Virus record (IMG/VR): IMGVR_UViG_3300047553_000113
Coordinates: 1 to 20,246 of that record
Strand: one strand, 5' to 3'
DNA from: a virus
Length of the DNA: 20,246 nucleotides
Shown here: piece by piece, positions 33 to 20,185 of the stretch
How positions within the stretch are numbered: the stretch's first letter is position 1
Layout of the letters: each line of letters starts with the position of its first letter
Made by a program: the position numbers and the translations under genes
The notes under the pieces: model-generated
Told to the model about the DNA's origin: nothing
The model's input: the letters and a program-made list of their open reading frames with translations, nothing else
Databases searched by the model: none

Positions 33-98
33 TTATTTTGCAATTAATATACCTGCAATAAAACACAGGACTAAAAAAATAAGATAACTTTCGCTCAT
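33..98 (-). CDS. 21-residue putative membrane micropeptide
   Basis: A 21-codon reading frame that starts inside the primase-helicase stop codon (ATGA overlap at 95-98) and ends on the Shine-Dalgarno sequence of the next gene. After a short polar start (MSES) it is almost wholly hydrophobic (YLIFLVLCFIAGILIA) and ends in lysine, the pattern of a single membrane-spanning segment. The 4-base overlap is the junction used by most gene pairs in this leftward block. No family is recognised. It could be a tiny membrane effector, or a translated leader that couples the downstream gene to the primase. The evidence is the exact spacing and hydrophobicity, so the call is moderate. Confidence 0.5.
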   Translation of the reverse strand: MSESYLIFLVLCFIAGILIAK

Positions 99-1720
99 AA
101 CGATTCCTCCTGCATCTCCATCATACGTCCAGTTTCCATGTCATACTTAAGTACACAAGCTGGCCCTGTATAGCCATTGTAACGATTCTTAGCTACAGCT
201 ATCTTAGTCATGTGACGTTCATTCTCATCCTCAGCCATGCTGTTACGCTCCAGTGTAATCACAGCGTCTGATAACTGAGCAATTGATCCTGAACCTCGCA
301 GCTGAGATAACGATACAGCCTGTCCATCCTCGTGTCCTGCATTGCCTTGAGGTCTACGAAGGTGGCTTACACAGATCAGAGTGATCTCCAACTCTTGAAC
401 CAGTGTACGAAGCTTCGTCATCATGTTGTCAATAGCCTTACGCTCATCTCCAAGGTCTTGACCAGATACAACAATACTGATGTGATCAAGAAATATAACC
501 CTACAATCGCAAGCTTTAGCCATATATCTGATTCTGTTGCTAATGTTGTCCACATCACTGCTACCGAAGTGATCAAAAAGATAGATACGATTACTACCAA
601 GAGTTGCATCGAAAGCATCTTTAAGCTCCTGTTCTGTTGTTGGTGTATCAGGTAAGTGCAACAGCTTATTAGCGTGCAAAGACATGATACTTCTAGCTGT
701 CTTACGGGTTGACTCTTCGAGGAATAACCCTCCAATGTTCCACTTCGTAGTGTTCAGAATGTTAAACAATATCTCACGTAGGAATTGACTCTTACCTAAG
801 CCTGATCCTGCTGTGACTGTGACTAACTCCGAAGGACGCATACCATAGAGAAGCTTATTCAATCCCTTCCAAGGATACATAGCTTCAGCCTTAGCCTCAG
901 GTTTAATCACTTCCTCCCACAGTGAAGCCGCATTGATAATCCCATCTGGAATGTAAACCTCAGCTCTCCACCACTCATTGACGAACTCTTTAGTAGCCCC
1001 TGCAATAAGGTAGTCACAAGCATCTTTGTAGCCACTCAAATGCTTAACGATCTTAGCCTTCTGTCCAAACAGTTCAGCCACCTCTTTAGAGGCCTTCTTA
1101 CCCGGCTCATCAGCATCAAAACAGATAACAATGTTCTCAAAGCTGTTTAGCCATTCATACTGGGCTTTACAGTCCTTTAAGGCCGCTTGTGCCCCGTTAC
1201 GAATGCTGACACTAGGCCACTGAGATCCGGTGAGTTGGTATCCTGCGAGTGCATCAAGTTCTCCTTCATAGACTGTGACATATTTGCCTCCTGCGTGGAA
1301 GAGACCTTGCCCAAACAACCGTGCATTCTGAAAGGTTCCGTTAATTGAAAAAGACTTTTCAGCAACTCTTCGTGTTTTGTAGGCGACAATGGCTCCACTG
1401 TCGTCAGTGTAAGGGTAAAAGTGATTCTGTGCATCTTGAGTTACTCCATACTTCTCACAGGTTTGTAAGTTAATACCTCGATCAGGTATTGATTTAATAG
1501 TCCCTTTAGGCTCTATCATGGTTGTCTTTCGTGGTTGTACTGCATCTCGCTTAACTGTGAAGTCATCATATTCATTCTCATGATGAGTTTCATGGCAGTT
1601 AAAGCAATAGGTGTGATTGTCATCGTATAAAGCACCTGCGTCTGAGCTACCACAGTATTCACATGGTATGTGCTTAACAAACTTTGACTCACTTGGTTTA
1701 CGTACTATTCTAAGCTTCAT
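95..1720 (-). CDS. T7 gp4-like DNA primase/helicase
   Basis: Bifunctional replication enzyme of 541 residues, close to the 566 of T7 gp4. The N-terminal zinc-binding domain has CxxC pairs C20/C23 and C39/C42. It is followed by a TOPRIM primase core with glutamate E152 (YEGELDALAG) and the acidic pair D202/D204 in FDADEPG. The C-terminal RecA-like ring helicase has Walker A AGSGLGKS (304-311), the LFLEES catalytic glutamate region (332-337), Walker B VIFLDH (408-413), and the LRGSGSIAQLSDA segment (474-486). A KNRYNG stretch (511-516) matches the T7 arginine-finger region. It should unwind the fork and lay down RNA primers on the lagging strand. The start overlaps the upstream 69-residue gene by 11 bases, implying translational coupling. 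Confidence 0.97.
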   Translation of the reverse strand: MKLRIVRKPSESKFVKHIPCEYCGSSDAGALYDDNHTYCFNCHETHHENEYDDFTVKRDAVQPRKTTMIEPKGTIKSIPDRGINLQTCEKYGVTQDAQNHFYPYTDDSGAIVAYKTRRVAEKSFSINGTFQNARLFGQGLFHAGGKYVTVYEGELDALAGYQLTGSQWPSVSIRNGAQAALKDCKAQYEWLNSFENIVICFDADEPGKKASKEVAELFGQKAKIVKHLSGYKDACDYLIAGATKEFVNEWWRAEVYIPDGIINAASLWEEVIKPEAKAEAMYPWKGLNKLLYGMRPSELVTVTAGSGLGKSQFLREILFNILNTTKWNIGGLFLEESTRKTARSIMSLHANKLLHLPDTPTTEQELKDAFDATLGSNRIYLFDHFGSSDVDNISNRIRYMAKACDCRVIFLDHISIVVSGQDLGDERKAIDNMMTKLRTLVQELEITLICVSHLRRPQGNAGHEDGQAVSLSQLRGSGSIAQLSDAVITLERNSMAEDENERHMTKIAVAKNRYNGYTGPACVLKYDMETGRMMEMQEESL

Positions 1721-4142: not shown

Positions 4143-5015
4143 TCAATGCATAGCGATAATAATGGGCACACCCTTTAAAGCTTGCATACCGCACGCATGG
4201 CCCTTGCCCGTGCACGATCCGCACGTACCGGGACAAGGAAAAGCTTTTTCAGTGAATGCAGCACGTAAAGCCTTTACAGTTTCCGGCTTGCCGTGATCTG
4301 TAGATTTTACTTTTTTGCCGATACGTACCGCTATAAATTCACCTCGTACAATAGGCAAGGTTTTTACTGCAGTTATCATTGTAGGGTGAGCATTGTGGCC
4401 ACCGGAAATGTTCAATTGATAATTTGAAGGCCATTTACCTACAATGTCATACCCTAGCAAAGCATGGAAGCTTTTAGAATAGCCATATGCACGTGCATTA
4501 GGTGTTTTGTCAAGTAGCTGCATCCAAAAAGCTACGTCGCCACCGTTAGCAAAATCGCCGTCAACGTATAGTCTAAAATCAAAACCTTCTGGCCTTGCTT
4601 TGGCTATGCTTGAGAATGCATATACAATTTGATCTTGAGCATAACGCATAAGGTATGCATTTTGGGCCATTCTAGCGAATGCAGCTGGATAACGCCATGC
4701 ACGGAAGCTATAGCAAAAATCTAAGCATTCACCGGCCCCGGGACAAGTAACCCCCGGCAAGCTTGAGAATGATACGAATGGAAGCTTAGAATTACCATTC
4801 AATGAAAATATACTGTAGCTGGGATCTAAGGTTTTAAAGGTATGCTCAAGCTTTGCAAAGTTATCTTGCCACCCCTTACCCGTAAACATAGGTGAAGCTT
4901 GCAAGGCCTTTAAAGCTTGCAATGCGCTACCTTGCGTGCCACCTTGAATGGCTATAGCTAAGCCTTGCAAAGCCTTGAATTTTTGAGCACTATTTGAAAA
5001 GATTTTAATTTGCAT
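4143..5015 (-). CDS. Gp88-like cysteine-rich phage protein
   Basis: A 290-residue protein that resembles the phage family known from mycobacteriophage gene product 88, recognised from the CPGAGECLDFCYS motif and the surrounding pattern. Cysteines fall in two sets: C91, C97, C101 (C-x5-C-x3-C) and C261, C265, C268, C275 near the C-terminus (CPGTCGSC...C). Seven such cysteines suggest iron-sulfur or zinc binding. The middle has RLYVDGDF (148-155), YGYSKSFHAL (177-186) and a conserved-looking NISGGHNAHP (202-211). The family's biochemical role is not established to my knowledge. A strong Shine-Dalgarno (AAGGGGAAAC) lies between it and the 31-residue membrane peptide. Eight AAGCTT sites and many GCTTGCAA words make its composition unlike the structural genes, which hints at separate origin. 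Family assignment is from memory and moderately sure; the coding call is firm. Confidence 0.88.
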   Translation of the reverse strand: MQIKIFSNSAQKFKALQGLAIAIQGGTQGSALQALKALQASPMFTGKGWQDNFAKLEHTFKTLDPSYSIFSLNGNSKLPFVSFSSLPGVTCPGAGECLDFCYSFRAWRYPAAFARMAQNAYLMRYAQDQIVYAFSSIAKARPEGFDFRLYVDGDFANGGDVAFWMQLLDKTPNARAYGYSKSFHALLGYDIVGKWPSNYQLNISGGHNAHPTMITAVKTLPIVRGEFIAVRIGKKVKSTDHGKPETVKALRAAFTEKAFPCPGTCGSCTGKGHACGMQALKGVPIIIAMH

Positions 5016-5028
5016 GATAGTTTCCCCT

Positions 5029-5124
5029 TTACTTAGTTAGAATGTCAAAATAGGCAAGCAAGCCCATGCATAAGCATAAGCCTAATGTGATAGCACAAAT
5101 GATATCTAATAATTTATCTAGCAT
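5029..5124 (-). CDS. 31-residue putative membrane peptide
   Basis: First gene of the leftward block. It has a strong Shine-Dalgarno (AAAGGA, five bases before ATG). After MLDKLLD the sequence is one hydrophobic run (IICAITLGLCLCMGLLAYF) containing three cysteines, then a lysine end: a single membrane-spanning segment. It ends 13 bases before the Gp88-like gene, whose Shine-Dalgarno follows its stop directly, so the two are co-translated. The function is not known; a partner role for the Gp88-like protein or a small inner-membrane effector are possibilities. Confidence 0.65.
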   Translation of the reverse strand: MLDKLLDIICAITLGLCLCMGLLAYFDILTK

Positions 5125-5252
5125 GTTGATCCTTTAAAGGTTTTGTGTTGCGATGGATAGAGTATCTACCTCGAAGCTTACGTGAACCTTACAAATACAT
5201 TTATTTTTAAACTATAAACCCTTACGTATAAACCCTAACGTTAGCCCATTAC

Positions 5253-5315
5253 TCTTATGTCTTATGTTATATATCTTATGTCTTATATAAGAGTACTCTT
5301 ATGTCTTATATAAGA
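5253..5315. repeat. Three direct repeats of TCTTATGTCTTATATAAGA
   Basis: Copies start at 5253, 5274 and 5297, so spacings are 21 and 23 bases, about two helical turns. Copies 2 and 3 are identical over 19 bases. Copy 1 matches only the first 13 (TCTTATGTCTTAT). Each full unit ends in the palindrome TCTTATATAAGA. Such phased repeats bind initiator or repressor proteins on one face of the helix. Confidence 0.7.
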
Positions 5316-5368
5316 CTTGAGAGTAGCTTGCAAGTATCCTTTAAAGCCACCTACACCGACCTACACAC

Positions 5369-5410
5369 TGTCAATATTCCGACACCTCTAGTGTCAACTT
5401 TCCGACACCT
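5369..5410. repeat. Two 19-bp repeats with TGTC/GACA dyads
   Basis: TGTCAAtaTTCCGACACCT at 5369-5387 and TGTCAActTTCCGACACCT at 5392-5410, 17 of 19 identical and spaced 23 bases. Each contains TGTC and GACA arms eight bases apart (GTGTC/GACAC in the second), which is the form of a dimer-binding operator. On the minus strand each copy also contains TTGACA. Confidence 0.65.
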
Positions 5411-5415
5411 ACTGA

Positions 5416-5576
5416 GTGACTGTGAAGTGAGTACTTACTAACATAGACTTTAGAGTGACTTGTTAGTGAGTGCTAACTTCAAAGTGACTGGGGGGAGGGG
5501 TGACTGCTTAGTGATTACTTTTGTGGGAGCCTACAAAGCTCACAAAAAAGGATAATTAGGGACAGATGAAGTGACT
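5416..5576. repeat. Cluster of five GTGACT words and an inverted repeat
   Basis: GTGACT occurs at 5416, 5455, 5484, 5500 and 5571, with near copies (GTGAGT, GTGATT) between. ACTAACA at 5437-5443 and TGTTAGT at 5461-5467 form a 7-bp inverted repeat around one copy. The spacing is irregular, so this is weaker evidence than the two phased repeat sets to its left. Confidence 0.4.
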
Positions 5577-5584
5577 ATAAGTCC

Positions 5585-5746
5585 TTGATCTATAAAGGAA
5601 AAGAAGTAGAGACTACAAAGTGCTTAAAATGTAGGCAGACAAGACAAACTGTACACCTTAGCAAGGGAACTTTAAAGTGTAACTTATGTGACTACAATCA
5701 CATAAAAGTAAAAATAAATAAGAAATATTTAAGGATAGTATTGTAA
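5585..5746 (+). CDS. Possible 53-residue zinc-ribbon ORF with TTG start, or a decayed gene
   Basis: The frame from TTG at 5585 to TAA at 5744-5746 encodes a basic protein with two CxxC pairs: CLKC, then about 20 residues later CNLC, followed by DYNHIKVKINKKYLR. That is a typical small zinc ribbon, unlikely by chance. The start is the problem. No ATG lies in frame, the upstream ATG at 5566 meets TGA after two codons, and the GGATAATTAGGGA stretch that looks like a Shine-Dalgarno serves that ATG. It may use TTG, a frameshift from the short ATG ORF, or be a remnant. Its last codons also form the -35 box of the rightward promoter. Confidence 0.4.
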   Translation: MIYKGKEVETTKCLKCRQTRQTVHLSKGTLKCNLCDYNHIKVKINKKYLRIVL

Positions 5747-5769
5747 GTCAAGACATAGTAGTGTATAAT
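5741..5769 (+). promoter_or_regulatory. Candidate sigma70 promoter for the late (packaging) operon
   Basis: TTGTAA (5741-5746), 17 bases, then a perfect TATAAT (5764-5769). Transcription would begin near 5776 and read toward the small terminase gene with a leader of about 250 bases that carries a hairpin. It is the best -10 box in the control region. Confidence 0.55.
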
Positions 5770-5796
5770 ATTCTCTATAGGAAATAATTGTGTTTA

Positions 5797-5822
5797 CTAA
5801 GAAGCCTGACCCCACTTCTTAG
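5797..5822 (+). other. 8-bp hairpin in the late-operon leader
   Basis: CTAAGAAG, a 10-base loop (CCTGACCCCA), then CTTCTTAG: a perfect inverted repeat about 20 bases downstream of the predicted transcription start. There is no T-run after it. It could protect the transcript end, act as an attenuator with a factor, or bind a regulator as DNA. Confidence 0.5.
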
Positions 5823-5832
5823 GTTGCTAAGA

Positions 5833-5853
5833 TGTACACCTTGGAAAGGGAAC
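5833..5853. repeat. Partial copy of part of the zinc-ribbon ORF
   Basis: TGTACACCTT, three variable bases, AAGGGAAC here match 5650-5670 at 19 of 21 positions, and similarity fades after that. The first copy encodes VHLSKGT of the small zinc-ribbon ORF. The second has no open zinc ribbon around it. It looks like a remnant of a duplication, which favours decay of small genes in this region. Confidence 0.5.
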
Positions 5854-5926
5854 ATAGAAGTTAAATACACTATTAACAGTTACTTATAATATATTACTTA
5901 CTAAGTAAATTAATATTAATAACTAA

Positions 5927-5940
5927 TATAAGTACTTATA
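5927..5940. repeat. 14-bp palindrome TATAAGTACTTATA
   Basis: A perfect palindrome in the AT-rich tract upstream of the small terminase gene, made from the same ACTTATA/TATAAGT arms as the inverted repeat at 2270-2290. Possible operator. Confidence 0.45.
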
Positions 5941-5960
5941 ATATTTATGTCTATGTAACA

Positions 5961-5989
5961 TTTATGTTAATGTCTTAGGTACTTTATAG
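5961..5989. repeat. Intergenic element, copy 2 (29 bp)
   Basis: Second copy of the 2316-2344 element, 26 of 29 identical and in the same orientation, ending 40 bases before the small terminase start. Because one copy precedes a rightward gene and the other lies before leftward genes, the sequence alone does not say which direction it serves. Confidence 0.6.
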
Positions 5990-6029
5990 TACTACATATA
6001 AAAGTCTCCCTATAAAGGACAAAGACGAG

Positions 6030-6419
6030 ATGACTGAAGAAATTAAAGACAGTGTTAAGGTTGTGTCTCCCAAACTACGTGGTAAGGGTAGACCTCCAAA
6101 GAGTGACCTACAAGCTGTTAAGAACAGAACTAAGAATAAGGTAGGCAGACCTGTAGGAGATGCAGGTAGGCTTCAAGAGTTCAAGGAAAGACTATTAGCC
6201 ACAGGTGGCACTAGAATCCTTGATAAGATGATTCAGATAGCCTTGGATGATGAACACCCGGGACAGATGGCAGCTATTAAGTTAGCTATGGATAGGATCT
6301 TACCAGTCTCAGTGTTTGATACAGCTAAGAGTGGTGGTAGTATGCCTCAGATCAGTATTAACATATCAGGCTTAAATAGTCCAGTTGTGTCTACAAACGA
6401 TGAAGTGATAGACGTATGA
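6030..6419 (+). CDS. Terminase small subunit (putative TerS)
   Basis: A 129-residue protein directly upstream of TerL, overlapping it by four bases (ATGA). The basic N-terminal third has two AT-hook-like segments, RGKGRPPK and KVGRPVGD, fitting DNA binding. A helical centre (GTRILDKMIQIALDDEHPGQ ... AAIKLAMDRILPV) matches the DNA-recognition and oligomerisation part of small terminases in marine and freshwater podoviruses. The C-terminus (PQISINISGL) is strand-like. It should select the packaging site and load TerL. The Shine-Dalgarno is weak (GACGAG, or AAGGAC further up). Assignment rests mainly on position and general similarity. Confidence 0.8.
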   Translation: MTEEIKDSVKVVSPKLRGKGRPPKSDLQAVKNRTKNKVGRPVGDAGRLQEFKERLLATGGTRILDKMIQIALDDEHPGQMAAIKLAMDRILPVSVFDTAKSGGSMPQISINISGLNSPVVSTNDEVIDV

Positions 6420-7675
6420 CACAATTAAACTTCCAACTGCTTAAGTGGCAGCAGAGTGTCTTTAAAGATACCACACGCTTTAAAGTAGTAGCTGCAGGTC
6501 GAAGGTGTGGTAAGTCTAGATTGTCAGCAGTATCGTTACTGATTGAAGCTTTGAATTGTCCAGATGGCTCAGCTGTGATGTACATAGCACCTACCTTAGG
6601 ACAAGCTAGAACGATTATGTGGGATTTACTGCATGAGCTAGGTAGACCTGTAATCAAGTCTAGCCATGTGAATAACTTAGAAATTACCCTTATAAATGGT
6701 AAGAAGATCTTAGTTAGAGGGGCTGACAATCCCGATTCTCTGCGGGGTGTTTCCTTAATTTACGTAGTTATGGACGAGTGTGCCTTTATCAAGGAAGACG
6801 TATGGCAGAAGATCATTCGAGCTTCACTGTCAGATAAGAAGGGTAGAGCACTGTTCATTAGTACTCCTAGTGGACGTAACTGGTTCTACGATACCTTTAA
6901 TCTAGGACAGGATAACACAGATGAGGAGTGGAAGTCTTGGCACTTTACCACTCAGGACAATGAGACTATTGATCCTAAGGAGATTGAGGCTGCAAAGCGT
7001 ACATTAAGTTCCTTTGCATTCAAGCAGGAGTACTTGTCTAGCTTCGATACCGCAGGTGCTGATGTCTTTAAAGAGGAATGGTTCAAGACTGCTGAAGAAC
7101 CTAGTTATGGTAGCTACATTGTAGCCATTGACTTAGCAGGTTTTGAAGAGGTAGGTAAGAATGCTGGGGCATCTAAGAAAAGACTAGACGAGACAGCTAT
7201 TGCAGTTGTTAAGTTAGAGGATAACGGTAACTGGTGGGTTCACAAGATACAGCATGGTCGGTGGGACATCAGAGAGACTGCAGTTAACATCTTGAAAGTG
7301 ATTAGAGACTTTCAACCTACAAGTATAGGTATTGAGCGAGGAGCATTGAAGAATGCTGTGTTGCCATACCTGAATGACTTGATGAGGAAGAATAACATCT
7401 ATGCTCACATACAGGACTTAACTCACGGGAATAAGAAGAAGACTGATAGGGTTGTCTGGAGCTTACAAGGTCGTATGGAACATGGAAGGATTACCTTCAA
7501 TGAGGATGAGGACTGGAGTGAGTTTAGAGATCAATTAGTTATGTTCCCTACAGCAGGTGTACATGATGACTTGGTAGATGCTCTAAGTTACATTGATCAA
7601 CTGGCTATAGCTAACTACAACCAAGACTACGAAGATGATGACTACGAAGTCTTAGACGTTATATCAGGATATTAA
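6416..7675 (+). CDS. Terminase large subunit (TerL)
   Basis: DNA-packaging motor of 419 residues. The ATPase domain has Walker A AGRRCGKS (27-34), Walker B VVMDE (117-121) and coupling motif FISTPSG (147-153). The nuclease domain has the RNase H-like first aspartate in AIDLAG (D239), IGIERG (304-309) and the HDDLVDALSY motif (383-392) that supplies the last acidic residues. All motifs are intact, so it should cut concatemers and pump DNA through the portal. It is coupled to TerS by an ATGA overlap. Confidence 0.96.
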   Translation: MTQLNFQLLKWQQSVFKDTTRFKVVAAGRRCGKSRLSAVSLLIEALNCPDGSAVMYIAPTLGQARTIMWDLLHELGRPVIKSSHVNNLEITLINGKKILVRGADNPDSLRGVSLIYVVMDECAFIKEDVWQKIIRASLSDKKGRALFISTPSGRNWFYDTFNLGQDNTDEEWKSWHFTTQDNETIDPKEIEAAKRTLSSFAFKQEYLSSFDTAGADVFKEEWFKTAEEPSYGSYIVAIDLAGFEEVGKNAGASKKRLDETAIAVVKLEDNGNWWVHKIQHGRWDIRETAVNILKVIRDFQPTSIGIERGALKNAVLPYLNDLMRKNNIYAHIQDLTHGNKKKTDRVVWSLQGRMEHGRITFNEDEDWSEFRDQLVMFPTAGVHDDLVDALSYIDQLAIANYNQDYEDDDYEVLDVISGY

Positions 7676-7946: not shown

Positions 7947-9989
7947 GTGGCTCTAACTAACGACCAATTCAGTGATGAGAAGAGTACTCAATTTCCGGAC
8001 GGAACGTCCTTTGAGGAACCTACAGAGGCTGAGAAAGAACTCACCTCGTGGGTAACTCAGCACATTACTCGCTGGCGTGACCATCGTGATGCTAACTACA
8101 TGGACTTGTGGTTGGAGTACGAACGTGTCTTCCGAGGTATCTGGGCTGCTGAGGATAAGACTCGTGAGAGTGAACGCTCACGTATCATCTCGCCAGCTAC
8201 TCAGCAAGCTATTGAGACTCGCCATGCTGAGATCATGGAAGCTATCTTCGGTCAAGGTGAATTCTTTGACATCTCAGATGATGTCTTAGATGTAGATGGT
8301 AATCCTCTAGATGTTGAACAAATTAAGGTTCAATTGCATGAGGACTTTAAACGAGATAAGATTAAGAAAGCTATTGACCAGATTGAGTTGATGGCTGAGA
8401 TTTATGGTACAGGTATTGGTGAGATCATTGTCAAGACTGAGAAGGAGTACATTCCAGCAACTCAGGCAATTCCCGGTATTGCTAATGCAGCTGCCATTGG
8501 AGTTCAAGAGAAGGATCGTATTGCCGTTAAGATCAAACCAGTTAACCCTAAGAACTTCCTTATTGATCCTAATGCTGATTCCGTTGACGATGCTTTGGGC
8601 GTTGCTATCGAGAAGTACGTTTCCATTCACAAGGTTGTGGAAGGTATTGAGAGAGGCATTTACAAAAAGGTAGACATTACCACAGCCTCTGAGGATGAGG
8701 ACTTAGAAGTAACTCAAGACTTGAAGACCTATCAAGATGATAAGGTTAAGCTCATCACTTACTACGGTTTAGTACCTAAAGAGTATCTGACTGAAGGAGA
8801 AGAGGAAGAGTATGAAGAGTTGTTTGCTGAAGGTACAGTAGCTGATGAGCACTGTAACTTGGTTGAGGCTATTGTCGTTATTGCCAATGACTCAATCCTC
8901 TTGAAGGCTGAAGCTAATCCTTACATGATGAAGGATCGTCCAGTCGTTGCATACCAAGACGATACAGTTCCCGGTCGCTTCTGGGGTCGTGGTACAGCTG
9001 AGAAGGCCTACAATATGCAGAAGGCTATTGATGGTCAGCTTCGTGCTCACATGGACTCATTGGCTTTGACCACAGCACCTATGATTGCAATGGACGCAAC
9101 TCGTCTGCCACGTGGTGCTAAGTTTGAGATTAAGCCCGGTAAGGCTATCCTGACCAATGGCTCACCTTCTGAGATCTTGTATCCCTTCAAGTTCGGTCAG
9201 ACTGATGGCAATGCAGCTGCAGCAGCGCAGAACTTTGAACGTATGCTCCTGCAAGCTACAGGTACAGTTGACAGCGCAGGTATGCCCTCTAACGTACCTC
9301 GTGATGCAGGTGCAGGTGGTATGTCTATGGCTATGGCAGGTATCATCAAGAAGTACAAACGTACCTTGAGTAACTTCCAAGAAGACTTCATGATCCCGTT
9401 CATTAACAAGGCTGCCTTCCGTTATATGCAGTTTGACAGTGAGCGTTATCCATCAGTTGACATGAAGTTCATTCCAACAGCTACTTTGGGTATCTTGGCA
9501 CGTGAGTTTGAACAGCAACAGATGATTGGCTTGTTGCAGACACTTGGCCCTAATACGCCTGTACTGCCATTGATCCTTAAAGGCATCTTGCAGAATAGTT
9601 CATTGTCTAACCGTGGTGAGTTGATGCAAGCTTTGGATCAGATGTCTCAGCCTAACCCACAGGCTGCTGAGGCTGCACAGATGCAACAACAAGCTCAGAT
9701 GCAACTTGCACAGGCTCAGGTGGCAGATCTGCAGTCTAAGGCTCAAAAGCAGTCAGCTGAGGCTCAAAAGACCATGATTGAAGCTCAGATGATCCCTGAA
9801 GAGCATCGTGTTAAGGTAGTTCAGGCAGCTGCAACTAACCTAGATAATGGTGATGACTTCGAGAAGCGTCTGAAACTAGCTGACATGATGCTTAAAGAGA
9901 AGCAAGTTAACCTGAAAGCTGCTGATATTGCCTCAAATGAGCGTATTGCAAGCCTTCAGATGATGACTAAAGCAAAGAAGAACGCATAA
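7947..9989 (+). CDS. Portal protein (head-tail connector)
   Basis: A 680-residue protein after TerL and before scaffold and capsid, the standard place of the portal. The start is GTG with AAGGAA six bases upstream. The N-terminal part has SRIISPATQQAIETRHAEIM, the centre has FWGRGTAEKAYNMQKAIDGQ and the glycine-rich stretch RDAGAGGMSMAMAG, all typical of large podovirus portals. Residues 568-620 are glutamine- and alanine-rich (MQQQAQMQLAQAQVADLQSK) and should form a long helix or coiled coil, as in portal barrels. It forms the ring through which DNA enters and leaves. Its last 23 bases overlap the end of the opposite-strand endonuclease gene. Confidence 0.93.
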   Translation: MALTNDQFSDEKSTQFPDGTSFEEPTEAEKELTSWVTQHITRWRDHRDANYMDLWLEYERVFRGIWAAEDKTRESERSRIISPATQQAIETRHAEIMEAIFGQGEFFDISDDVLDVDGNPLDVEQIKVQLHEDFKRDKIKKAIDQIELMAEIYGTGIGEIIVKTEKEYIPATQAIPGIANAAAIGVQEKDRIAVKIKPVNPKNFLIDPNADSVDDALGVAIEKYVSIHKVVEGIERGIYKKVDITTASEDEDLEVTQDLKTYQDDKVKLITYYGLVPKEYLTEGEEEEYEELFAEGTVADEHCNLVEAIVVIANDSILLKAEANPYMMKDRPVVAYQDDTVPGRFWGRGTAEKAYNMQKAIDGQLRAHMDSLALTTAPMIAMDATRLPRGAKFEIKPGKAILTNGSPSEILYPFKFGQTDGNAAAAAQNFERMLLQATGTVDSAGMPSNVPRDAGAGGMSMAMAGIIKKYKRTLSNFQEDFMIPFINKAAFRYMQFDSERYPSVDMKFIPTATLGILAREFEQQQMIGLLQTLGPNTPVLPLILKGILQNSSLSNRGELMQALDQMSQPNPQAAEAAQMQQQAQMQLAQAQVADLQSKAQKQSAEAQKTMIEAQMIPEEHRVKVVQAAATNLDNGDDFEKRLKLADMMLKEKQVNLKAADIASNERIASLQMMTKAKKNA

Positions 9990-10530
9990 AGTCAGCAATT
10001 TGTTGATGTTCTTGGGCAGTTCCATCGTTTTTAATGCGATTGGCTCTCCAAGACATCACAATAACGTTACCTTTAATGTAACCTTTGGTAGGATCTATAC
10101 GGTCAAACGATACTGAGTTCTCCATACGTCCTTTACCTTCTGTAAAGTAGTCAAGTTCAATACCTAAGACAGGACAATGTGAAGGAAACTCTAGATCTCC
10201 GAACTCAATAGTCCATTCCCAGCCATACTTATTACTTTTCTTGTTACGGAACTTCTCTTTCATTGATTGAAAGATTAAAGACTTGGTAAATTCAGGATCG
10301 TTCCACTTAGATCCGTTTTTAGCAAACATTTTATCGGTATATTCTTTAGTTTTACGTGCTTGTCGTATCTTAAAAGCATCAATACCGTGTTTTTGAGCTA
10401 TTTGTTTGATGCGCTGCTTACTAAGTTTTCCGTCTAATTTATGAGCTATTTCAGTATATCCAATACCTTCTTTTAACCATTGAAGTAATAGTTCACGTTC
10501 ATGTTCTGTAATTTTACACTTAAAAGCCAT
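9967..10530 (-). CDS. HNH-like homing endonuclease on the opposite strand
   Basis: A 187-residue protein transcribed against the late operon. The N-terminal part (about 7-50) looks like a helix-turn-helix (TEHERELLLQWLKEG ... YTEIAHKLDGKLSKQRIKQI). The C-terminal part (110-187) has CPVLGIELDY, then SFDRIDPTKGYIKGNVIVMS and WRANRIKN, a common phage endonuclease module of the HNH / His-Me-finger type. The first histidine of a usual DH pair is arginine here (DRID), which is also usual in relatives I recall. The Shine-Dalgarno (AAGGAA) and its own sigma70 promoter are clear. The 3' end overlaps the portal gene by 23 bases. It is likely a mobile gene inserted after the portal. Confidence 0.8.
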   Translation of the reverse strand: MAFKCKITEHERELLLQWLKEGIGYTEIAHKLDGKLSKQRIKQIAQKHGIDAFKIRQARKTKEYTDKMFAKNGSKWNDPEFTKSLIFQSMKEKFRNKKSNKYGWEWTIEFGDLEFPSHCPVLGIELDYFTEGKGRMENSVSFDRIDPTKGYIKGNVIVMSWRANRIKNDGTAQEHQQIADFMRSSLL

Positions 10531-15392: not shown

Positions 15393-17063
15393 ATGACTAC
15401 GATCATTACAAAGAATAGCAGTACATCATCTGCTACGCCAGCCTCAGGGGATCTAACTAAGGGTGAGTTAGCCATTAACGTCACCGATAAGAAGCTGTAC
15501 ACCAAAGACAACTCAGGTACAGTTGTGAGGGTTGTAGGCTCTCTAGGTAATCAAGAAGCTTCAGCAGCTGCCATTACAGGTGGTACAGCAGCTGGAGTTG
15601 CTATCACTGGTGGTACTATTAACAATACTCCCATTGGTGGTTCAACTGCTGCAGCTGTTACAGGTACTGTAGTTACAGCTACAACTAACTTTGCAGGTGC
15701 TCTGACAGGTGCTGTGACTGGTAACGTAACTGGTAACTTGACAGGTAATGTCACAGGTAACGTTACAGGCAACGTCACAGGTAATGTAACAGCCTCTACA
15801 GGTACATCTACGTTTAACAATGTAACCATTAACGGTACGTTGGACATGGATGCAGCCTCAGCAGCTACCATTACTAACTTGCCTAATCCAACTAACTCAG
15901 GCGATGCAGCTAACAAAGCTTATGTAGATGCACAAGTTGCAGCTGTGGTTGACGGTGCTCCAGCAGCTTTGGATACCTTGAATGAACTTGCAGCAGCCCT
16001 GAATGATGATGCTTCATTCTCTACCACTGTAACTAACTCAATTGCAGCTAAGCTTCCTTTGTCTGGCGGTACAATGTCAGGTAATATTGCAATGGGTACT
16101 AACAAGGTCACAGGCCTTGGTACTCCATCAGCAAGCACAGATGCTGCCACTAAAGGTTATGTAGATACTGTCGGTGATGCTAAGTTAGCCTTGGCAGGTG
16201 GAACTATGACAGGTAACATTGTCATGGGTTCTAACAAGGTTACAAGTACAGCTACTCCAAGTGCCGATGCTGACTTGACAACTAAAGTGTATGTTGACTC
16301 TATCCTCGGTAGTGCTACTTCAGCAGCTACATCAGCTTCAGCAGCTGCAACATCAGCGACCAATGCAAGTAACTCAGCCTCAGCAGCTTCTACAAGTGCA
16401 TCTAATGCCTCAGCAAGTGCCTCAGCAGCTGCAGCATCCTATGATAGCTTCGATGATCGCTACTTAGGCTCTAAAACATCAGCTCCATCAGTTGACAATG
16501 ACGGTAACTCACTGTTGACAGGTGCTCTGTACTGGAACTCTACATCATCTAATCTGTGGGTGTGGAACGGTAGTGCATGGACTCAAGCTACTTTAACAGC
16601 AGGTTCCTTTGCAACATTGACAGGTACTGAGACTCTTACCAACAAGACTATCACTTTTACAGATAATACTCTGACAGGTGTAGCGAGTACTTCAACATCA
16701 CAGACTCTGACCAACAAGACCATTGAAGCAGGTACATTCACTAACGGCTACACAGAAGAAACTGTAACTGCTAACACTTCTACAGCTTATACAGTTGACT
16801 TGGCTAATGGTTCGGTACAGATTCTGACATTGACTGGTAACTGTACATTTACATTCCCAACTGCAACAGCAGGTAAGGGTTTTACAATGCTTTTAAAGCA
16901 AGATGGCACAGGTTCACGCACAGTTACATGGCCTAGTTCAGTTAAATGGCCTGCAAGCACAGCACCTACGATTACATCTACTGCCTCTAAAGGCGATAAA
17001 TTTGTCTTTGTAGGTGATGGCACTTATTGGTGGGCGAGTTCAGCGGGCCAAAATTATCTATGA
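15393..17063 (+). CDS. Tail fibre protein (556 residues)
   Basis: The start follows the upstream stop with no gap, with GGAG seven bases before. It opens with KGELAINVTDKKLY, a common phage fibre start. Residues 109-132 are six TGNV/TGNL units. Three fibre repeats follow with YVD signatures (ANKAYVDAQ, ATKGYVDTV, TTKVYVDSI) and LSGGTMSGNI / LAGGTMTGNI units. Next comes an alanine/serine coil, then a GALYWNSTSSNLWVWNGSAW module and TLTNKTI repeats, and a beta-rich C-terminus (GKGFTMLLKQDGTGSRTVTW). It should form a trimeric fibre for host recognition. The stop overlaps the GIY-YIG gene start (ATGA). Confidence 0.9.
   Translation: MTTIITKNSSTSSATPASGDLTKGELAINVTDKKLYTKDNSGTVVRVVGSLGNQEASAAAITGGTAAGVAITGGTINNTPIGGSTAAAVTGTVVTATTNFAGALTGAVTGNVTGNLTGNVTGNVTGNVTGNVTASTGTSTFNNVTINGTLDMDAASAATITNLPNPTNSGDAANKAYVDAQVAAVVDGAPAALDTLNELAAALNDDASFSTTVTNSIAAKLPLSGGTMSGNIAMGTNKVTGLGTPSASTDAATKGYVDTVGDAKLALAGGTMTGNIVMGSNKVTSTATPSADADLTTKVYVDSILGSATSAATSASAAATSATNASNSASAASTSASNASASASAAAASYDSFDDRYLGSKTSAPSVDNDGNSLLTGALYWNSTSSNLWVWNGSAWTQATLTAGSFATLTGTETLTNKTITFTDNTLTGVASTSTSQTLTNKTIEAGTFTNGYTEETVTANTSTAYTVDLANGSVQILTLTGNCTFTFPTATAGKGFTMLLKQDGTGSRTVTWPSSVKWPASTAPTITSTASKGDKFVFVGDGTYWWASSAGQNYL
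15717..15788 (+). repeat. Six tandem 12-bp units coding for TGNV
   Basis: Imperfect 12-base units of the form ACNGGYAAYGTN, in frame in the fibre gene, each giving Thr-Gly-Asn-Val (one Leu). Copy number can change by slippage without frameshift and would alter fibre length. Confidence 0.85.
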
Positions 17064-17614
17064 CGCAAGCATATCTTTATCGTTGGACTGAGTTATCTAC
17101 TGGCAAGTGGTATGTTGGAAGCCGTACAGCTAAAAACTGCCATCCAGATGACGGATATATTTGTTCATCAAAGTATGTAAAACCATTGATTAAAAATAAT
17201 CCAACTGATTGGACTAGAGAAATTTTAGTTATTTCAGACAAGAAATATATTAGGGATTTAGAAGTTAAATACTTAAAATCACTACAAGCTGTAAAAGACA
17301 AGCAAAGTTATAACAAGCATTATGGTGGAGCTACTTTTGCAAACTCTGGTGAGTTTTTATCAGACGAGACTAAAAATAAAATTAGTGCTTCTTTGACTGG
17401 TAGCAAACATCCTCTTTATGGAAAGCCTTGCTCTGAAGAACGAAGACAAGCAATCATTAAAGGAACATTGGGCGTGAAGAAAACAACAACAGAAAAGATG
17501 CGTAAACCTAAGCGTAAAGAGCAATGTCCGCATTGTGGAATCTTTGCTTCTGGTGGAAATCTAGCTAAGTGGCATCTTGATAAATGCAAGGAGTATGACA
17601 ATGTTCTCGTCTAA
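17060..17614 (+). CDS. GIY-YIG homing endonuclease 1
   Basis: A 184-residue protein. An ORF is open from 17027, but ATG at 17060 is chosen because it overlaps the fibre stop by four bases and puts the motif at the very N-terminus. The GIY-YIG core is degenerate: AYLYRW (4-9) and WYVGSR (17-22), with R22, E68 in RDLEVKYL and N85 in SYNKHYGG. A NUMOD3-like DNA-binding segment (SDETKNKISASLTG, about 102-115, and HPLYGKPCSEERR) follows, then a zinc finger with C156, C159, H172, C176. It should cut phage DNA at a target near the neighbouring genes and spread by repair. Its terminal codons carry the Shine-Dalgarno of the next gene. Confidence 0.9.
   Translation: MTQAYLYRWTELSTGKWYVGSRTAKNCHPDDGYICSSKYVKPLIKNNPTDWTREILVISDKKYIRDLEVKYLKSLQAVKDKQSYNKHYGGATFANSGEFLSDETKNKISASLTGSKHPLYGKPCSEERRQAIIKGTLGVKKTTTEKMRKPKRKEQCPHCGIFASGGNLAKWHLDKCKEYDNVLV
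17588..17593 (+). promoter_or_regulatory. Shine-Dalgarno of the 640-residue tail gene, inside endonuclease 1
   Basis: AAGGAG, seven bases before ATG at 17601, made by the Cys-Lys-Glu codons that end the endonuclease zinc finger. It decides the start: the ATG at 17577 has no site and the one at 17595 is one base too close. Confidence 0.75.
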
Positions 17615-19525: not shown

Positions 19526-20185
19526 ATGAAAAGCGGAATCTATCACATTAAAAATACTGTCAGTAATGGCATATATTTCGGTCGCTCTGTTGATGTAGCG
19601 GATAGGTTGAGCCATCACAAGCATCAATTAAAACGTGGTGTTCACGTTAACAAGCGTTTGCAACATTCATGGAATAAACATGGTGAGCAATCATTTGAGT
19701 TCAAAATGATTTGGGAAGAAACTCCAGATAAGTTAGAAGAATTAGAAGGCTTTATTCTTGAGACTGTTTGGGGTAATGAAAGGCTGTTTAATCACCATAA
19801 ATTATCTGCGGGTGGTTTTCTTCCTAACAACAAATTAGGCTGTTTTCCAAGGTCAGAAGAAACTAAAAAGAAATTAAGTGTTGCATTTAAAGGCCGTGAG
19901 TTTTCTGAGCAACATAAACAAAAAATTGCTATTGGGAAGACTGGTTTAAAAGCCAGTGATGAAACTAAAAAGAAAATGTCAGATAAAAAGTCTGGCAAAC
20001 CAAGGCCACAATCATGGCATGACAAGATGGCTGAATATAGGGAAAATAATCCAAACCCTATGCAAGGCAAGATTAGCCCTATGAGAGGAAAAAAATTCCC
20101 TACTATTGCTTGTGAGCATTGCGGTAAGGAAGCCTCAAAAGGAAATTACTTACGCTGGCATGGAAACAATTGTAGGAGCAAATAA
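19526..20185 (+). CDS. GIY-YIG homing endonuclease 2
   Basis: A 219-residue protein starting two bases after the tail gene stop. There is no clear Shine-Dalgarno, so translation is probably coupled. The core is complete: SGIYHI (3-8), IYFGRS (16-21), R27, H31, E74 (ELEGFIL) and N89 (LFNHHK). Two NUMOD3-type segments lie at about 110-124 and 144-158 (SDETKKKMSDKKSG). The zinc finger C196, C199, H212, C216 has the same layout as endonuclease 1 (CxxCG, GN, WH, C), so the two share their C-terminal part although their catalytic cores differ. The stop overlaps the next start by one base (TAATG). Confidence 0.93.
   Translation: MKSGIYHIKNTVSNGIYFGRSVDVADRLSHHKHQLKRGVHVNKRLQHSWNKHGEQSFEFKMIWEETPDKLEELEGFILETVWGNERLFNHHKLSAGGFLPNNKLGCFPRSEETKKKLSVAFKGREFSEQHKQKIAIGKTGLKASDETKKKMSDKKSGKPRPQSWHDKMAEYRENNPNPMQGKISPMRGKKFPTIACEHCGKEASKGNYLRWHGNNCRSK
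20174..20178 (+). promoter_or_regulatory. Shine-Dalgarno of the last gene, inside endonuclease 2
   Basis: AGGAG, six bases before ATG at 20185, made by the Cys-Arg-Ser codons after the zinc finger. It plays the same part as the site at 17588. Confidence 0.75.

Follow-up and report, generated by a model that had tools for sequence, protein, structure and literature searches.

In the temperate phage lambda, OR and OL consist of two or three dyad operators about 20–24 bp apart within a divergent control region. The repeats described here are likewise dyads at ~20–24 bp spacing in a divergent control region, the difference being that this array would be bound by host proteins. Sites for host regulators are found in the lytic T4-like cyanophages, which carry NtcA and Pho boxes proposed to steer the phages' own genes (Sullivan et al. 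2010, PMC3037559), and a literature search for mixed host-regulator sites in phages recovered only this cyanophage work. On the bacterial side, a comparative study of GntR regulators (PMC4494728) gives the SdhR operator as TCTTATGTCTTATATAAGACATAAGA, a site inferred by comparative genomics whose palindrome contains further symmetry; that study, citing Suvorova et al. 2012, describes SdhR as a HutC-type (HutC subfamily) GntR-family regulator of betaproteobacteria, where it is the predicted regulator of TCA and glyoxylate (energy-producing) genes.

The locus considered here lies in a 20,246-bp virus record, a podovirus-like genome, referred to throughout as the window. It shares with the cyanophages the presence of host nutrient-regulator sites in phage DNA; in the cyanophages one or two regulators serve many promoters, whereas here the sites of about six host proteins are found in one junction and are exchanged as cassettes, and whereas the cyanophages are T4-like, those considered here have terminases of several types and are presumed to infect betaproteobacteria. 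With the SdhR operators of betaproteobacteria (PMC4494728) the window shares the same 19-bp core, and one phage copy forms the 26-bp palindrome with two mismatches, but the window sites form a tandem of three within the control region of a phage and adjoin neither the regulator nor a TCA gene.

Organization of the window

The leftward operon contains a GP88-family gene, small genes and a T7-type primase/helicase gene, and the rightward operon encodes TerS, TerL, portal, scaffold and capsid proteins. The genes that orient the junction are:

95..1720, minus strand: T7-type DNA primase/helicase gene of the leftward operon (phrog_239, E 1.4e-187)
4143..5015, minus strand: GP88-family gene, the first large gene of the leftward operon (PF17338, E 6.3e-16)
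6030..6419, plus strand: putative TerS (small terminase) gene, assigned by its position beside TerL
6416..7675, plus strand: TerL (large terminase) gene (phrog_2, E 9.8e-48)

The phage collection holds no close annotated phage (the best TerL match is ~31% identical), a TerL search of bacterial genome contigs found none, the putative TerS has no match in a PHROG search, and an Rfam scan of the window returned no RNA family. The phage is most likely a podovirus with a host among the betaproteobacteria. We interpret positions 5016-6030 as a divergent control region separating a leftward early (replication) operon from a rightward terminase/structural operon. Both repeat families lie inside this 1-kb gap, which is AT-rich and repetitive, and a stretch of 29% GC at 5501-6000 adjoins them, just as the sequence-only reading had placed them between divergent operons next to an AT-rich tract.

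Several other features of the window are recorded here. Positions 5585-5746, between a G-run and TerS, hold a small reading frame that starts with TTG and resembles a zinc ribbon (CLKC...CNLC), and a similar TGTACACCTTxGxAAGGGAAC sequence occurs twice, at 5650 and 5833. Possible homing-endonuclease-like genes are situated among the structural genes at 9967-10530, 17027-17614 and 19526-20185; by eye, those at 17027 and 19526 have a GIY-YIG-like look.

Family A repeats match the host SdhR operator sequence

5253..5271, plus strand: A copy 1, degenerate SdhR operator TCTTATGTCTTATGTTATA, 84% identical to the reference
5274..5292, plus strand: A copy 2, SdhR operator TCTTATGTCTTATATAAGA, the exact 19-mer of host operators
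5297..5322, plus strand: A copy 3, SdhR operator, palindromic over 26 bp and differing from the published site at 2 positions

Three copies spaced by 21 and 23 bases had been reported from the sequence alone, and their positions and spacings stand; copies 2 and 3 (5274-5292 and 5297-5315) are identical over 19 bases, but copy 1 is degenerate. It carries three changes and lacks the 12-bp palindrome TCTTATATAAGA present in copies 2 and 3. The palindrome of copy 3 extends past the 19-mer to 5322. That there are two 19-bp repeat families in the divergent region is confirmed, and by dinucleotide-shuffle tests both are far above chance: pattern A, allowing up to three mismatches, has 4 matches in the window where 0.03 are expected, pattern B has 2 where 0.11 are expected, and when the junction was shuffled 2000 times with its dinucleotides preserved, no identical 19-mer pair spaced 15–60 bases apart arose. 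An AT-rich, repetitive junction could in principle yield functionless repeats by chance or low complexity; the excess of pattern A, its conservation in the junctions of relatives down to ~50% TerL identity, and its identity to a host operator make such an origin for A and B extremely improbable.

A text search for TCTTATATAAGA across 5.4 million papers returned a sole match, PMC4494728, which names the SdhR palindrome. Copy 3 differs from the published 26-mer at 2 of 26 positions, and copies 2 and 3 match it exactly over 19. In bacterial genomes the exact 19-mer is present in at least 120 stretches, nearly all of them betaproteobacterial, and it adjoins sdhR/mdh, aceA, icd or acn at 76 of 80 loci; the SdhR-like regulator beside these sites has GntR and UTRA domains. 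The isocitrate lyase and malate dehydrogenase at the host loci were confirmed by curated models, and for the isocitrate dehydrogenase and aconitase the names come from inspecting the sequence by eye, as they do for a series in Limnohabitans in which the site lies between mdh and genes resembling sdhR-sdhA-sdhB-gltA. Of 61 genomes sampled from one host family, 51 contain the exact 19-mer in one to three copies each, and a reversed control pattern is found in none. Family A is thus very probably the host SdhR operator sequence, and from this identity we infer that the SdhR protein would bind it. The ten near-complete phage relatives contain no SdhR homologue.

Family B and other elements of the junction

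Eighty relatives were found by TerL, and the 46 that are non-redundant and have a complete junction were used for counts; they were selected by terminase only, and sites in their 1.1-kb junctions were compared with shuffles. Further junction elements are:

5150..5245, minus strand: AT-rich stretch GAACCTTACAAA ... AAACCCTTACGTATAAACCC, with the same DNA in L009, L118 and L141
5347..5368, plus strand: conserved linker CCACCTACACCGACCTACACAC between two exchangeable slots, from alignment and the count in relatives
5369..5387, plus strand: B copy 1, dyad TGTCAATATTCCGACA(CCT), from repeat comparison
5392..5410, plus strand: B copy 2, dyad TGTCAACTTTCCGACA(CCT), from repeat comparison
5426..5439, plus strand: T dyad AGTGAGTACTTACT, which recurs close to the G-run across many relatives
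5465..5478, plus strand: second T dyad AGTGAGTGCTAACT, from the junction counts in relatives
5490..5500, plus strand: G-run GGGGGGAGGGG, near-universal in relatives
5520..5551, plus strand: conserved element TTTGTGGGAGCCTACAAAGCTCACAAAAAAGG, from comparison with relatives
5741..5769, plus strand: candidate for a rightward promoter upstream of TerS, sigma-70-like and agreeing with the consensus at 10 of 12 bases

The two B copies are 89% identical at a spacing of 23, with a TGTC-N8-GACA dyad inside. A subset of relatives has TGTCG-N6-CGACA-like pairs, which are 22–23 bp apart in close relatives and at other spacings in L048 and L235. Searches for the dyad in host genomes with three patterns, over 12, 299 and 61 genomes, revealed no recurring gene (0 of 299 genomes; 1 of 61 with a wider pattern, where the SdhR control gives 51 of 61), and we rejected a host operator, there being no host counterpart upstream of recurring genes in these sets. 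No phage gene was found that tracks the presence of B. Matches to pattern B elsewhere in IMG/VR, outside this clade, were set aside as chance, those inspected being largely GC-rich and overlapping reading frames. Because the slot that B occupies is taken by a Fur box in sister phages, we read B as a regulator's site, most likely an operator for some other DNA-binding protein. The T dyad is present in 18 of 46 relatives (1.15 in shuffles); a match in only 1 of 60 host genomes leaves it with no host counterpart, and it too was rejected as a host operator.

The AT-rich stretch at 5150..5245 is a possible leftward promoter region; a consensus promoter scan gave no leftward promoter within it or near family A. 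On the other side, relatives have a TTGACA-N17-TATAAT-like sequence at the position of the rightward candidate. A search for the phage RNA polymerase PF00940 gave no match in ten relatives, and none in the control.

Exchangeable slots for host-regulator sites

The linker CCACCTACACCGACCTACACAC is recognizable in 30 of 46 relatives at up to six mismatches, and 0.92 Mb of control sequence yielded 3 matches. It separates two slots whose contents vary. The left slot may contain an SdhR array, a single SdhR palindrome accompanied by DnaA boxes, a set of three GGCAAATATTGCC-like palindromes, or NtrC sites together with DnaA sites; in the right slot there is either the pair of B repeats or a Fur box, or neither of them. 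Combinations that include SdhR are SdhR with B (the window), SdhR with Fur (L009), and DnaA/SdhR with B (L017), and the GGCAAATATTGCC palindromes are paired with B in L013 and L016 and with Fur in L014. The A slot of L008, L013, L014 and L016 holds three palindromes, GGCAAATATTGCCG / GGTAAATTTTGCCG, ~20–24 bp apart. These combinations are mixed among phages whose TerL proteins are 89–100% identical; this is a pattern of cassette exchange, in which the two slots around the linker exchange independently, apparently by recombination at conserved linkers as judged from the alignment. The proposal that two different DNA-binding proteins act side by side is supported by these observations, since A has the sequence of a host GntR operator, B is a different dyad, and the slots exchange independently.

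General consensus sequences were used for DnaA, Fur, NtrC, LexA and ParB. SdhR sites are found in the junctions of 9 of 46 relatives (0.0 in shuffles), NtrC sites in 13 (0.05 in shuffles), exact and often clustered DnaA boxes in 18 (0.65), and parS in 3 (0). The excess is moderate, at a loose cut-off, for LexA sites (8 of 46 relatives; 1.25 in shuffles) and Fur boxes (7 of 46; 1.7). The canonical ParB site TGTTTCACGTGAAACA is exact at L070:3669-3684, within the junction, with near-exact copies in L059 and L054, and single sites convincing by eye are GCTAATGAGAATCATTCTC in L009 and L071, TGCACTATAATGGTGCA in L071 and TACTGTATAGGTGTACAGTA in L056. Host-regulator sites are almost absent from the remainder of the phage genomes, SdhR sites occurring there at ~0.001 per kb.

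Could the junction be an origin of replication? The sequence-only reading had offered iterons of an origin as one explanation of the repeats, with GC skew as a check. We rejected an iteron origin for A because it is a host promoter operator sequence; many relatives lack both A and B while keeping the junction, an outcome that the sequence-only reading had itself named as refuting, and the skew minimum near the junction, seen in all ten near-complete relatives, coincides with the change in gene direction, so that skew was set aside as evidence and no origin is demonstrated by it. An origin somewhere in the region nonetheless has a claim, since many relatives have DnaA-box clusters there, several of them flanking TCTTATATAAGA; bound host proteins, DnaA in many relatives and others elsewhere, would then help in opening or loading, and the AT-rich neighbourhood is compatible with this. 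Set against it are the absence of any DnaA box within one mismatch at 5000-6029 of the window and the nature of SdhR, Fur and NtrC as transcription regulators, and we consider an origin rather unlikely.

SdhR sites in other phages

We compared 106 viral loci containing the exact SdhR 19-mer with the proteins of the window, and 78 match at least one of them. Of 28 distinct loci that we took to lie outside the clade, 17 have a recognizable TerL on the fetched stretch, in most cases within 3 kb of the SdhR site, and these TerL proteins belong to several families (phrog_38, phrog_675, phrog_2). The phage control region at L086:2550-2950 has alternating NtrC, Fur and SdhR sites within ~350 bp. In the annotated phage MW202796.1, whose TerL is 27% identical to that of the window over the matched part, three SdhR-like sites lie together with a Fur box and a G/C-run between the terminase operon and an early operon with genes for antirestriction, a helicase and DNA polymerase.

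The recurrence of SdhR sites beside unrelated terminases bears on whether the junction is a genome end. No non-coding element of the clade is better conserved than the G-run and the sequence that follows it (5490-5551, GGGGGGAGGGG and then GGGAGCC...CACAAAAAAG), shared by 35 of 46 relatives, and its 10-mer GGGGGGAGGG is present in 35 of 46 relatives and nowhere else. The G-run is a possible cos or packaging element, and contig G005, which ends in poly-G at this site, may mark the physical end of the genome. Were the G-run cos, with the array at the first-entering end, tightly bound host proteins could act as an anchor, ratchet or shield, and the identity of the protein would be of little importance. 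A near-universal G-run close to TerS is in keeping with this; other near-complete contigs have their break at a different point or are circular, the direction of entry is drawn by analogy only, and we regard such a role for the array as improbable.

Possible control of early transcription or titration of host regulators

The reading we prefer is that the early/late control region carries an array of interchangeable operators for host regulators, in which three host SdhR operators and a second-slot operator would exert cis-control over early transcription and the cassettes are exchanged among sister phages; for this full reading we put the chances at about even. In an infected cell, SdhR of the host would occupy the array beside the leftward promoter and set early transcription by the carbon and energy state of the cell, and sister phages would respond in the same way through Fur (iron), NtrC (nitrogen), LexA (damage), and DnaA and ParB (cell cycle), the cassettes being swapped between them. 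Both the position between divergent operons and the kind of proteins concerned agree with control of the leftward operon. No repressor or integrase gene was recognized in the near-complete relative G008, its predicted proteins being judged by eye. Against this reading, the interchanged regulators respond to unrelated signals, which argues that the signal itself may be of no importance.

This interchangeability would also be expected if the sites were decoys, with replicating phage DNA drawing SdhR away from sdh, mdh, aceA and icd, so that energy metabolism would alter during infection, and with the Fur, NtrC, LexA and DnaA sites of sister phages affecting other regulons likewise. The numbers are compatible with such titration, in that a host genome has one to three SdhR sites and a phage genome three, with up to four exact copies in the array of L141, and the ten near-complete relatives provide no SdhR of their own. 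Many relatives, though, have a single SdhR palindrome only, abundant proteins such as Fur or DnaA would be hard to titrate, and the sites are confined to one fixed region and not scattered, albeit one that is also the main non-coding gap. We consider titration unlikely, if somewhat less so than an origin.

Taken more broadly, we tentatively suggest that betaproteobacterial phages share a widespread cassette region between their early and terminase operons, containing interchangeable sites for host master regulators of carbon, nitrogen, iron, SOS, replication and segregation, in which having some tightly bound host protein, or titrating it, outweighs which protein it is. Such an array would tie the early development of abundant uncultured phages, or their takeover of metabolism, to named host regulators. 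For family A we can name the sites, their regulator and its regulon in the host, which makes the proposal directly testable, and the non-coding DNA of phages may provide hints as to both the likely host group and the physiology of the host.
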